DNA of 33,333 nucleotides from a virus. Position numbers and translations under genes: made by a program. Below the pieces are notes generated by a model. The model worked only from the letters and a program-made list of their open reading frames with translations, did no database searches and was not told the DNA's origin. Where the stretch lies: positions 1 to 33,333 of the IMG/VR virus record IMGVR_UViG_3300028800_001007. One strand, written 5' to 3'. Shown one piece after another: positions 12,823 through 17,789 of the stretch (position 1 is the stretch's first letter; every line of letters begins with the position of its first letter).

Positions 12823-12851
12823 TTGACACTGCCGGGGCGACCGTCTACTGT
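12823..12851 (+). promoter_or_regulatory. Rightward promoter of the transfer module
   Basis: TTGACA (12823-12828), 17-base spacer, TACTGT (12846-12851). Start expected near 12858. Same architecture as the leftward early promoter. It drives the small genes, DUF2637 and FtsK-like genes downstream after a leader of about 150 bases. Confidence 0.82.
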
Positions 12852-12852
12852 T

Positions 12853-12873
12853 GGCTACAGATCGACACCGAAC
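12853..12873 (+). promoter_or_regulatory. 21-bp operator element, right copy
   Basis: Identical to the element at 10325-10345 and at the same distance from its -10 hexamer. Probable repressor site giving joint control of both early operons. Confidence 0.75.
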
Positions 12874-12942
12874 CAGCGGTATCGGAGTCAGTTCGGAACC
12901 GGGTCCGCCCTTCGTATGAGGCAGGACGGCCCCAACGAAAGC

Positions 12943-12977
12943 GCCCCCCGGCGGTGCGTAAACACCAGCCGGGGGGC
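12943..12977 (+). promoter_or_regulatory. Strong leader hairpin of the transfer operon
   Basis: GCCCCCCGGC-GGTG (12943-12956), loop CGTAAA, CACC-A-GCCGGGGGGC (12963-12977): 14 base pairs with one bulged A. It sits in the leader about 35 bases before the first start codon. It may slow or stop transcription, or protect the mRNA. No U-run follows. Confidence 0.6.
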
Positions 12978-13011
12978 TACGGGCCCAGACCTACAGGAGA
13001 GGTCGAGAACC

Positions 13012-13413
13012 TTGAACGATCGTAACGGACCCCCCCCAGGCGACGACGGCGACACGACGTTCCGGAACACAGACCGGTTCATCGACAACCTGCTACTGCG
13101 GAACCAGCCCGGCACCGAGTTCAACGTCGTGATGGCCGCGCAGCACACCGACACCCTGTTTGAGATCATGACGAGCCACACCGACGATGTGCACCCCAAT
13201 GACATGTCCCCCGGCCAGCTCGCCCGGTACACCGAGGTCGTTGGCCTGTCGGGTCTCGCGTCGGCTGCGCTGGCGATCCGTGACCAGCTCGTCGAGGCGA
13301 ACCAGATCGCACGCGACGACCTGGCGCTGCGCCGCCGCGAACTTGCCGCGTTCCGCCTTCAGGCACTGCTGGCCCTGAACGGCGCGCAGGTCCGGACGGA
13401 GGCCACGCCATGA
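13012..13413 (+). CDS. Hypothetical helical protein, 133 residues, first gene of transfer operon
   Basis: The start is TTG 13012 behind AGGAGAGG; the same frame is open further upstream but that part is the promoter and leader. The product contains FIDNLLLRNQPGTEFNVVMA and LVEANQIARDDLALRRRELA, with a helical, coiled-coil-like C-terminal half. No family is recognised. The stop overlaps the next start (ATGA). Probably an accessory protein of the transfer or stability module. Confidence 0.7.
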   Translation: MNDRNGPPPGDDGDTTFRNTDRFIDNLLLRNQPGTEFNVVMAAQHTDTLFEIMTSHTDDVHPNDMSPGQLARYTEVVGLSGLASAALAIRDQLVEANQIARDDLALRRRELAAFRLQALLALNGAQVRTEATP

Positions 13414-13643
13414 CTATCACGTGGCCCGAGCGCCGCCCGCGCCGCACCGCGTCATGGATCCGTGCGTGGCTTGCCGCGCACCCGCAGCCCCCGGCGCTCC
13501 CGGATTTCTGGATGTGCAAGTGCTGGACTCTCGCCAATCTCGACGGGCGGTGCACGTGCCCGGACCGGCCGGAGGGTCACCCTGGCCCGCGGCGGCGGCT
13601 GCTCGGCGTTTCCCGTAACACCGGAGGGTGTGAAACTGCATGA
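13410..13643 (+). CDS. Small Cys-rich protein, 77 residues
   Basis: The N-terminal half is basic and Trp-rich (SWIRAWLAAHPQPPALPDFW), then MCKCWTLANLDGRCTCPDRP supplies four cysteines (CKC and CTC) for a possible zinc site. Coupled by ATGA on both sides, which strongly supports it as a gene. Function unknown. Confidence 0.68.
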   Translation: MTITWPERRPRRTASWIRAWLAAHPQPPALPDFWMCKCWTLANLDGRCTCPDRPEGHPGPRRRLLGVSRNTGGCETA

Positions 13644-13864
13644 CCGCGTTCCTGGTCGTCGCGCTGGTGGTGCTCGCCGCCCGCGCCATGGGGCCGAAAG
13701 GCTGGGCTGTCCTCGGCGCGGCGGCCGGGTTCGCTGTCGCAGTCGGTGCCGCTCACGGGCATGCGCCCGAGTTGCTGTCTGGTGCCGTCCTCGCCGCTGT
13801 CACAGTCGCGGCGGGGACGGCGGCCCTGGTCGGGCTGCTGCACCGCGCGGTGGTGATCGCATGA
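13640..13864 (+). CDS. Small membrane protein, 74 residues
   Basis: Almost wholly hydrophobic: MTAFLVVALVVLAARAMG, then WAVLGAAAGFAVAVGAA, then AVLAAVTVAAGTAALVGLL, giving three likely membrane helices. ATGA overlaps with both neighbours. In AICEs and Streptomyces plasmids, small Spd-type membrane proteins before and after tra help spread DNA between hyphal compartments; a similar role is inferred from position only. Confidence 0.7.
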   Translation: MTAFLVVALVVLAARAMGPKGWAVLGAAAGFAVAVGAAHGHAPELLSGAVLAAVTVAAGTAALVGLLHRAVVIA

Positions 13865-16530: not shown

Positions 16531-16538
16531 CTGGGGAG

Positions 16539-16663
16539 GGTAGCGGCAGGCCGGCGAAAGGTAGCGCTGCCGCTACCTCCCCTGACCTGCGGAAACGTGA
16601 TCGGGCCGCTACCGGTAGCGGCGAGGCCCCCGCTGTGACCTGCGCGGTAGCGGAGGTAGCGGC
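16539..16663. repeat. Cluster of seven GGTAGCGGC repeats, clt-like locus
   Basis: Copies at 16539, 16560 (GGTAGCGCT), 16569 (reverse), 16605 (reverse), 16614, 16646 (GGTAGCGGA) and 16655. Copies 2 and 3 form a near palindrome, copies 4 and 5 a perfect 18-bp palindrome, copies 6 and 7 a 9-bp direct tandem. The cluster starts nine bases after the translocase stop, where the cis-acting transfer locus of Streptomyces TraB systems (8-bp recognition repeats) is often found. A reading frame from GTG 16527 crosses it but looks non-coding. Confidence 0.75.
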
Positions 16664-16744
16664 TGCCCGCAGGAACACCCCTGGCGGCCGGTCACTAGGG
16701 AACCATGCTGGCGGCCCCCCCTGTGAAAGGTGGACGGAGGGCCC

Positions 16745-16936
16745 ATGGTCTTCAGGTCAGAGGACGACCACGACTACCGGGCATGCGGCGACGAGGACTG
16801 CCCCCGGTTCCCGTGCCGTGTCTACAAGGAAGGCGTGGCCGATGGTTACTGGATCGGCCACGCCGCCGGGTTCGCGGAAGGGTATGACAAGGGGTTCCCG
16901 GACGGCCAGGCGGCGTGCCCGCGCCCGCATAGGTGA
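16745..16936 (+). CDS. Hypothetical protein, 63 residues
   Basis: ATG 16745 lies a few bases after GGACGGAGGG. The acidic product contains CGDEDCPRFPCRVYKEGVAD and GYWIGHAAGFAEGYDKGFPD; the three or four cysteines may bind metal, and the second half has a repeated aromatic-glycine pattern (GYWIGHAAG, GFAEGYDKGF). No family is recognised. It is followed after nine bases by the next gene. Confidence 0.65.
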   Translation: MVFRSEDDHDYRACGDEDCPRFPCRVYKEGVADGYWIGHAAGFAEGYDKGFPDGQAACPRPHR

Positions 16937-16945
16937 GGTGACGGC

Positions 16946-17155
16946 ATGACGGGCGTCCTGCTCGCCGCCGGGTTCGCGGTGGCCTACGCCTTGTTCGTCC
17001 TGGTCCGCCCGACGAAGGTGTGCCCGCGCTGCCACGGCACCATGCGCGTGGTCCGTGGCACGCGAATCCGCCCGTGCAAATGCAAGAACGGGCACGTTTA
17101 CAGGTTCGGTGCCACGGCTGTGCACCGGTTTTTCTGGTCGATCAAGGAGAGGTAA
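16946..17155 (+). CDS. Membrane-anchored zinc-ribbon protein, 69 residues
   Basis: One N-terminal membrane helix (VLLAAGFAVAYALFVLVRP) followed by CPRC and CKCKNGH, a one-zinc ribbon facing the cytoplasm. AGGTGAGG lies a few bases before ATG 16946. The position in the transfer module suggests an accessory role at the membrane; no family name. Confidence 0.7.
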   Translation: MTGVLLAAGFAVAYALFVLVRPTKVCPRCHGTMRVVRGTRIRPCKCKNGHVYRFGATAVHRFFWSIKER

Positions 17156-17159
17156 CACG

Positions 17160-17789
17160 ATGCCCGTCTTCAACAACCCGCGCCAGGCCATCATCATCGA
17201 GGGTGGTAGCCGTGTCCCCGTGGGCTTGCTGGCCGGGGTTGCTGCCGTGGTCGCTGCGGGCTTGTTCCTGCTGGCGCACCTGGTGTTCATCGCGGTGAGC
17301 GCGGCCGGCATCGGGCTGGTCACCTTGGGGTCGGTGCTGTTCCTGAAGCGGTTCACGATCGTTGAGATGCCGCTGGCCGCGCAGCAGCGGCAGCCGACCC
17401 TGCGGGTCCGCGCGGTGATGGTCCCGCGTAAGGTCGCCGCGCCGGATGCACGCGCAGCACTCGACAACGCGCGCAGTAGCCGTATAGTGACTCCTGGTAT
17501 TGTCATCTCGGCTGGGGGGAACTGCGGGCCAGGTTGCGAGCCGCCCGCAGTTCCCCGCACACGACCTCGAATACCCCTACCCTGTGATCACCGGGGGCAC
17601 CAGCGCAGGGGAGATCACACCATGAGGTTCTACGGCCCGAGGATCTACCAGCGTGGCCCGAAAATCGGCGGAATCCGCACGATCTTGTGGTCGGCCAGCG
17701 TGACCGCCGGGAAGCCGAAGCGCGGCCGGAAAGCAGCGACCCCGGCGGCCCGCGACACGATCAGGCGGATACGCGACGACCAGCGCTGA
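17160..17789 (+). CDS. Membrane protein, possibly two genes in one open frame
   Basis: ATG 17160 follows AAGGAGAGG. Residues 20-65 hold two membrane helices (VGLLAGVAAVVAAGLFLLAH and AVSAAGIGLVTLGSVLFLK), then a basic segment to about residue 115. The frame then runs without a stop through a promoter, a hairpin and the start of a 55-residue gene, all read as a Pro/Arg/Cys-rich linker. The membrane protein probably once ended near 17490, where TAG and TGA stand in another frame; either a frame slip removed its stop or the long 209-residue form is real. Confidence 0.55.
   Translation: MPVFNNPRQAIIIEGGSRVPVGLLAGVAAVVAAGLFLLAHLVFIAVSAAGIGLVTLGSVLFLKRFTIVEMPLAAQQRQPTLRVRAVMVPRKVAAPDARAALDNARSSRIVTPGIVISAGGNCGPGCEPPAVPRTRPRIPLPCDHRGHQRRGDHTMRFYGPRIYQRGPKIGGIRTILWSASVTAGKPKRGRKAATPAARDTIRRIRDDQR
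17461..17488 (+). promoter_or_regulatory. Near-consensus promoter inside the end of the transfer module
   Basis: TCGACA (17461-17466), 16-base spacer, TATAGT (17483-17488), five of six consensus bases in each hexamer. A start near 17495 gives a leader of about 127 bases before ATG 17622 with a strong hairpin. Confidence 0.65.
17516..17556 (+). promoter_or_regulatory. 13-bp perfect hairpin in the leader of the 55-residue gene
   Basis: GGGGAACTGCGGG (17516-17528) pairs with CCCGCAGTTCCCC (17544-17556), loop 15 bases. A second pair, TGTGATC (about 17583) and GATCACA (about 17612), encloses the ribosome site AGGGGAG and could mask it. The arrangement suggests an attenuator, a small RNA, or a translational switch. 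Confidence 0.55.
17622..17789 (+). CDS. Small basic protein, 55 residues
   Basis: ATG 17622 follows AGGGGAG. The product MRFYGPRIYQRGPKIGGIRT ends in a Lys/Arg-rich tail (GKPKRGRKAATPAARDTIRR), consistent with nucleic-acid binding. It has its own promoter and structured leader. It ends six bases before the convergent last tail gene. Also readable as the C-terminus of the longer frame from 17160. Confidence 0.55.
   Translation: MRFYGPRIYQRGPKIGGIRTILWSASVTAGKPKRGRKAATPAARDTIRRIRDDQR

Follow-up and report, generated by a model that had tools for sequence, protein, structure and literature searches.

The closest described relatives of the locus reported here are the TraB-clt systems, in which TraB assembles at the plasmid clt locus through recognition of 8-bp TRS repeats (PMC4170104). 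In plasmid pSVH1, TraB interacts with SpdB2, a DNA-binding integral protein of the membrane that forms oligomers (PMC4170104). We have analyzed a 33,333-bp stretch of DNA (the window), which is the entire IMG/VR record IMGVR_UViG_3300028800_001007 and most likely the genome of a temperate actinophage, a virus of soil actinomycetes. Within it a module reads rightward from a promoter through three small genes, a gene for a DUF2637 protein, a gene for an FtsK/TraB-type double-stranded DNA (dsDNA) translocase and an array of repeats to three small open reading frames (ORFs) ending at 17789. A preliminary description of the sequence had proposed a conjugation-type transfer module inside a complete phage genome. 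On the evidence below we consider it likely that this temperate actinophage carries a TraB-clt-type cassette that would move its own dsDNA between cells.

The translocase (14509-16530, plus strand) is 673 aa in length, and has hydrophobic N-terminal segments, a motor containing K349, D452 and E453, and a C-terminal winged helix (residues 600-672). It matches PF01580 at 24.4 bits (cut-off 24) and phrog_1358 at 7.6e-23, and BLASTP aligns it with pSVH1 TraB at 33% identity over 375 aa (E = 2e-40). All 147 sequences compared retain the Walker lysine (K349), the Walker B DE (D452, E453) and a downstream glutamine (Q490). The module thus includes an FtsK translocase, as the preliminary description had stated, and the motor residues of this protein are intact. 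In searches with the predicted structure (pLDDT 87) the best matches were the dsDNA-bound FtsK motor and the conjugation protein TcpA (pCW3). The winged helix is predicted to have a helix-helix-wing arrangement, while on the N-terminal side the prediction gives hydrophobic windows around 140-180 together with long helices. We rejected the cut-off of the NCBIfam model plasmid_TraB (800 bits) as a criterion of membership because the established TraB of pSVH1 also fails it. The window translocase scores 23 bits and pSVH1 TraB only 41, and pIJ101 TraB is unmatched; the model covers a narrower set.

A tblastn search with the translocase at E = 1e-5 gave no match among 50,697 phage records, and relaxing the limit returned only weak FtsK-like phage matches (best E = 3e-3). 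The same protein matched 61 plasmid records, every one from an actinomycete, with pSVH1 among them. We calculated a tree of 156 motor domains by a quick method, and little weight should be placed on any one of its deep joins. The window falls within a clade of 23 rows with 99% support, comprising 14 phage-labeled sequences, six contigs from metagenome-assembled genomes (MAGs) or isolates and three that are unassigned. Host FtsK and the FtsK of mycobacteriophage Thibault lie together, that of phage Gilgamesh lies apart, and the window protein is with neither. It groups instead with translocases encoded by integrative elements and plasmids of actinomycetes, the closest reference being pSVH1 TraB, across a long branch. 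To account for the tree, the translocase must have changed between phage-labeled and other elements 11 times or more. The assignment of the protein to the TraB type is supported by this position.

Directly 3' of the translocase stop there is a clt-like array (16539-16662, both strands, 124 bp in all), which emerged from a blind search for clustered 8-mers. It contains six exact copies of the 8-bp repeat GGTAGCGG/CCGCTACC, at 16539 (+), 16570 (-), 16606 (-), 16614 (+), 16646 (+) and 16655 (+), plus one near copy at 16560, and holds six of the nine GGTAGCGG copies in the whole record. In 2000 dinucleotide shuffles of this stretch the maximum was four copies, reached once. The blind search also recovered the repeat of pSVH1, GACCCGGA, right behind traB; in the window that sequence is present only as scattered copies. 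Of 70 phage-side loci, 21 have four or more repeats following the translocase gene, whereas none of the 132 stretches that follow other genes has as many (p = 2e-11, Fisher test; the loci are related and such p-values do not refer to independent events). With at least three repeats the fractions are 39/70 and 10/132.

The repeat motif varies between elements, and the pattern of its variation is what speaks most strongly for the array being a site that belongs to the translocase. With the motor controlled, similarity of the motif is correlated with that of the C-terminal domain (partial rank r = 0.30, 65 loci, 0/500 permutations). The correlation is also found for the phage-side loci only (partial r = 0.42, 25 loci) and after dereplication (partial r = 0.375, 39 loci), in each case with none of 1000 permutations reaching it. 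The reverse partial correlation, of motif with motor when the C-terminus is controlled, is near zero (-0.06 to 0.12). The loci L126 and L152 illustrate this. Their motors are only ~42-43% identical to that of the window, yet they share the CCGCTACC motif with it, and their winged helices resemble its own. We therefore regard the array as a putative clt site that would be read by the winged helix of the translocase.

Repeats of this kind are also seen outside the phages. AICE-type chromosomal loci (AICE, actinomycete integrative and conjugative element; L162, L163, L165, L221 and others) have arrays of CTAGAGGC, GGTGCTAC and CTAGCGGC located 0-130 nt behind the translocase stop. These are often spaced by 10 or 12 nt, and are candidate clt sites for AICEs. 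One contig (L091) has a second FtsK-like ORF (10579-11889, minus strand) with its own AGGTAGCG repeat cluster nearby.

The pairing of cassette and virion genes recurs in related elements. A scan of IMG/VR with the single translocase sequence gave no match, and an alignment-based scan found 67 contigs with the translocase, 49 of which have a virion hallmark (Pfam portal on 26 of 50 records, and capsid also on 26 of 50). The record G004 (40,241 bp) has an exact 127-bp terminal repeat and is therefore circular. Its TerL, portal and capsid are 63, 48 and 58% identical to those of the window, the remaining virion block is colinear, and it has an integrase, DUF2637 and the translocase (50%). In G039 (32.6 kb) the capsid, connector and tail genes are 33-68% identical, DUF2637 54% and the translocase 60%, and the two small genes that follow the translocase are kept. 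Together with two circular Pseudonocardia plasmids, these records provide the survey of relatives that the preliminary description had called for. Neither of the outcomes it had named as contrary to its proposal occurred, in that the module is present in relatives and the translocase stands apart from host and phage FtsK. The identity of the cassette as TraB-type thus draws on the position in the tree, the related phages, the clt-like array and the covariation of motif and winged helix. Copies in actinomycete chromosomes are AICE-like, typically with PrimPol and an integrase and with no virion gene by these profiles. We also considered, and rejected, the idea that the genomes of the MAG loci L154-L160 contain a close relative of the window TerL; a single genome, that of L159, gave a match, of 30% and on another contig.

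The virion module named in the preliminary description is confirmed, with TerL, portal, protease, capsid, connectors, tape measure and tail genes matched by PHROGs. The minus-strand virion genes run from 33319 down to 18209 and then, over the join, from 3092 down to 1003. They comprise the major capsid gene (32513-33319) within a block of tail tube, neck/connector and major capsid genes (25122-33319, assigned from PHROGs and related genomes), the tail proteins including minor tail proteins (18209-24987) with the tape measure (22864-24987), the portal (1728-3092) and the head protease (1003-1731). TerL, the terminase large subunit (3715-5157; phrog_9, 7.5e-72), is on the plus strand. The window thus has the terminase, portal, protease, capsid and tail genes plus the integrase that are required of a temperate tailed phage. 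The first 459 nt recur at 32875-33333 with 5 mismatches over 459 bp, and from this overlap the genome is circularly permuted and ~32.87 kb in length. In a circular genome such mismatches may reflect variation between strains or errors of assembly. A direct repeat of 66 nt with 83% identity (6294-6359 and 6434-6499, 140 bp apart) was also noted.

The combination of an integrase with a Tra protein, by which AICEs are recognized, is present in the window. No RepSA, RepAM or PrimPol replication protein was matched among the window genes scanned, and the element is therefore not filed as an AICE. Nor was ParA or Rep matched among the window ORFs scanned. The circular contig may represent the phage form; the two circular relatives from isolates exist as plasmids.

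The tyrosine integrase (11269-12441, plus strand; PF00589, 70.5 bits; phrog_1, 5.7e-66) had been counted as part of the module. The enzyme is indeed present, but lies to the left of the interval 12823-17789. The Xis-like gene fared similarly. There is none within that interval, where the sole 'excisionase' label is the PHROG label of the DUF2637 protein, but a small HTH_17 (Xis/MerR-type) protein (10057-10305, minus strand; PF12728, 40 bits, cut-off 27) is encoded outside it and is a candidate excisionase. This is the first ORF below a leftward promoter (TTGACA-17-TAAAGT, 10347-10375, minus strand) located by a consensus scan. On the other side the leftward promoter adjoins the gene of a helix-turn-helix (HTH) protein (10408-11037, plus strand; PF01381, 23.8 bits, cut-off 23; PHROG repressors), a candidate immunity repressor. 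The leftward promoter reads into the HTH_17 gene and a primase/helicase-like gene.

The module has its own promoter, as had been suggested, with TTGACA at 12823, a 17-nt spacer and TACTGT (12823-12851, plus strand), although the second hexamer is poor, with only 3/6 matches. The module and leftward promoters have in common the TTGACA, the 17-nt spacer and the next 21 nt, GGCTACAGATCGACACCGAAC, placed at equal distance from the second hexamer. These 21 nt are exact twins within 12845-12877 (plus strand) and 10321-10353 (minus strand), and the element is a putative operator. The simplest reading is that one repressor would control both promoters. With this element common to the promoter of the cassette and the early promoter that reads leftward, release of that repressor could start both programs.

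The integrase gene is itself flanked by an inverted duplication of ~110 bp (11033-11140 and 12655-12784), in which 36 nt are identical at 100% and 34 nt at 97% with weaker similarity between, and which contains AATTCGGAAT-type repeats. It could represent integrase arm sites or an invertible segment. An exact scan of IMG/VR for this flanking repeat gave no match.

The DUF2637 protein (13861-14436, plus strand) matches PF10935 at 49.6 bits (cut-off 22.8), so that this component of the module was correctly named. Its AlphaFold model (pLDDT 84) has four long helices followed by a C-terminal HTH, and a Foldseek search with the model found nothing better than E = 1. The predicted layout of a helical membrane-like part plus HTH resembles SpdB2, and the gene adjoins that of the translocase; we propose that the protein may have an Spd-like role. 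A DUF2637-like protein is also found in phage Samy, which has no translocase match at E = 1e-5. DUF2637 alone is therefore not diagnostic. The Samy protein is annotated as a putative DNA-binding protein. The label 'excisionase' that phrog_733 gives to DUF2637 proteins (13861-14436 in the window, 8941-9588 in L262) is probably misleading.

From the genes, homology, recurrence, array, covariation and twin promoters that are observed, we infer how the cassette might act, including the direction and timing of transfer. The translocase would sit in the membrane as a hexamer, and its winged helix would bind the array on the element's own circular dsDNA. The motor would then pump dsDNA across the membrane into a neighboring cell or hyphal compartment, with the DUF2637 membrane/HTH protein as an Spd-like helper. 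Release of a single repressor could switch on excision or replication jointly with transfer. An element of this kind might leave cells in two ways, as virions and through the pump. In its widest form the idea would be that a widely distributed set of temperate actinophages have their own TraB-clt system and spread both by virions and by direct pumping of dsDNA, with a tag that evolves with the winged helix and a cassette wired to the lysogeny switch. That generalization we hold only tentatively, at a little under an even chance.

A number of observations weigh against this interpretation. The translocase is followed by two repeats or fewer in 31 of the 70 phage-side loci, including pPaSha2 and L092. 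It is present on only 4 of 50 portal-related records (many of them fragments), and the cassette is recurrent but not universal among related phages. A search for the twin-promoter element in relatives was negative, and an exact scan of IMG/VR for it gave no match. Direct profile comparison of DUF2637 with SpdB2 found no significant similarity, and the sole link between them is indirect, through a Streptomyces plasmid protein (L245) that has a DUF2637 match and is 36% identical to SpdB2. Lastly, the circular ends of the window disagree at 5 of 459 positions.

The alternative that survives best, though we think it unlikely, is that the cassette acts within one mycelium only. It would then serve the spread or partition of phage or prophage DNA across septa after infection, or its stability, with no transfer from donor to recipient. 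The sequence fits both possibilities. The Spd functions of Streptomyces plasmids serve intramycelial spread and can also confer stability (PMC4170104), and the isolate and MAG relatives of the window are Actinomycetes, many of mycelial genera. But the TraB-clt systems studied to date also move DNA between mycelia (PMC4170104, PMC3218068).

Alternatively the array might be an operator, a terminator or a replication element, and the translocase recent cargo that has no function for the phage. The array does include an inverted repeat (16533-16582), and the region to which this belongs has a folding z of -4.4; in addition, the module is richer in GC (~70%) than elsewhere in the window (~64%). Yet the motif varies with the C-terminus of the translocase and not with its motor, the motor residues are invariant in all copies, and the cassette is retained in divergent phages, all of which makes this explanation improbable. 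Marginally less probable again is that the translocase is a helper in prophage chromosome segregation, genome resolution, packaging or ejection. Other phages do carry FtsK-like proteins and the fold is common with FtsK, but this phage has its own TerL, and the translocase groups with proteins from plasmids and integrative elements rather than with the FtsK of phages or hosts, and is followed immediately by the clt-like array. Finally, the pairing might be a chimera of the assembly, or an integrative element might lie by chance beside a prophage. This could account for the GC shift, and some large IMG/VR contigs may include neighboring elements, but it is contradicted by independent circular records. 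The window ends overlap, G004 has the same cassette with its exact terminal repeat and colinear virion block, and virion genes occur with DUF2637 and FtsK on both of the circular Pseudonocardia plasmids, so we give it almost no weight.

The remaining genes of the module, all on the plus strand, are small. The first (13012-13413) has a TTG start behind AGGAGAGG and no family match. It is followed by a small Cys-containing protein (13410-13643), also with no family match, which overlaps both neighbors by 4 nt. Next comes a small protein with two hydrophobic segments (13640-13864), overlapping its neighbor by 4 nt, and the start of DUF2637 (13861) overlaps its stop. Behind the translocase a protein of 68 aa (16730-16936) is kept in 24 loci on phage and MAG contigs, and a second small protein (16946-17155) in seven. 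The ORF at the junction to the tail genes (17142-17789) has no family match.

If the TraB-clt interpretation is right, some phages have two ways out of the cell built into their genomes, the particle and a pump of the conjugation type. The boundary between actinophages and integrative conjugative elements would then be blurred, because the tree needs so many switches of the translocase between phage-labeled and other elements. clt sites would become predictable from sequence, and the pairing of array and winged helix makes the hypothesis directly testable.

We can compare the locus with known systems. Plasmid pSVH1 of Streptomyces venezuelae (NC_007431) has a homologous translocase, 8-bp repeats directly behind its gene and the gene of a membrane protein (SpdB2) upstream, but it is a plasmid without virion genes, its repeat is different, and SpdB2 itself has no Pfam DUF2637 match. 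AICEs, which have a tyrosine integrase, a DUF2637 protein and a translocase of the window family, are the nearest non-phage relatives. AICE-type loci have PrimPol replication genes and no virion genes were found in them, whereas in the window virion genes are present and a replication protein of the AICE kind was not found. The phage FtsK-like proteins (Mycobacterium phage Thibault, Streptomyces phage Gilgamesh, phrog_1358) share the FtsK/SpoIIIE motor, but their similarity is weak, as given above for isolate phages, and they are separate in the tree. The circular plasmids from Pseudonocardia isolates, pPaSha2 (CP052773) and P. broussonetiae unnamed3 (NZ_CP053567), each have virion genes, an integrase, DUF2637 and FtsK on one element, and NZ_CP053567 has a TerL 55.7% identical to that of the window and an array of ACCTGACC. 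They differ in gene order, NZ_CP053567 has PrimPol, and pPaSha2 lacks an array at the threshold used.

Streptomyces plasmid-phages are already known. The 34-kb plasmid pFP3 (L263, NC_023067) has a full virion set, an integrase, DUF2637 and FtsK, but its translocase is distant and undetected by the profile of the window family, there is no clear repeat array, and ParA and DnaB are present. pZL12 (NC_013420) has virion genes, ParA/ParB, an integrase and a 'Tra3-like' gene, and reportedly combines a plasmid and a phage cycle with the ability to transfer (J. Bacteriol. 2010); pFP4 is likewise said to have been termed a plasmid-phage (Plasmid 2012). A literature search, with subscription journals mostly outside its reach, found no paper on a TraB-clt cassette in phages. 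What appears new is such a cassette, together with its recognition array, recurring in a set of temperate actinophages, and the covariation of that array with the winged helix of the translocase.

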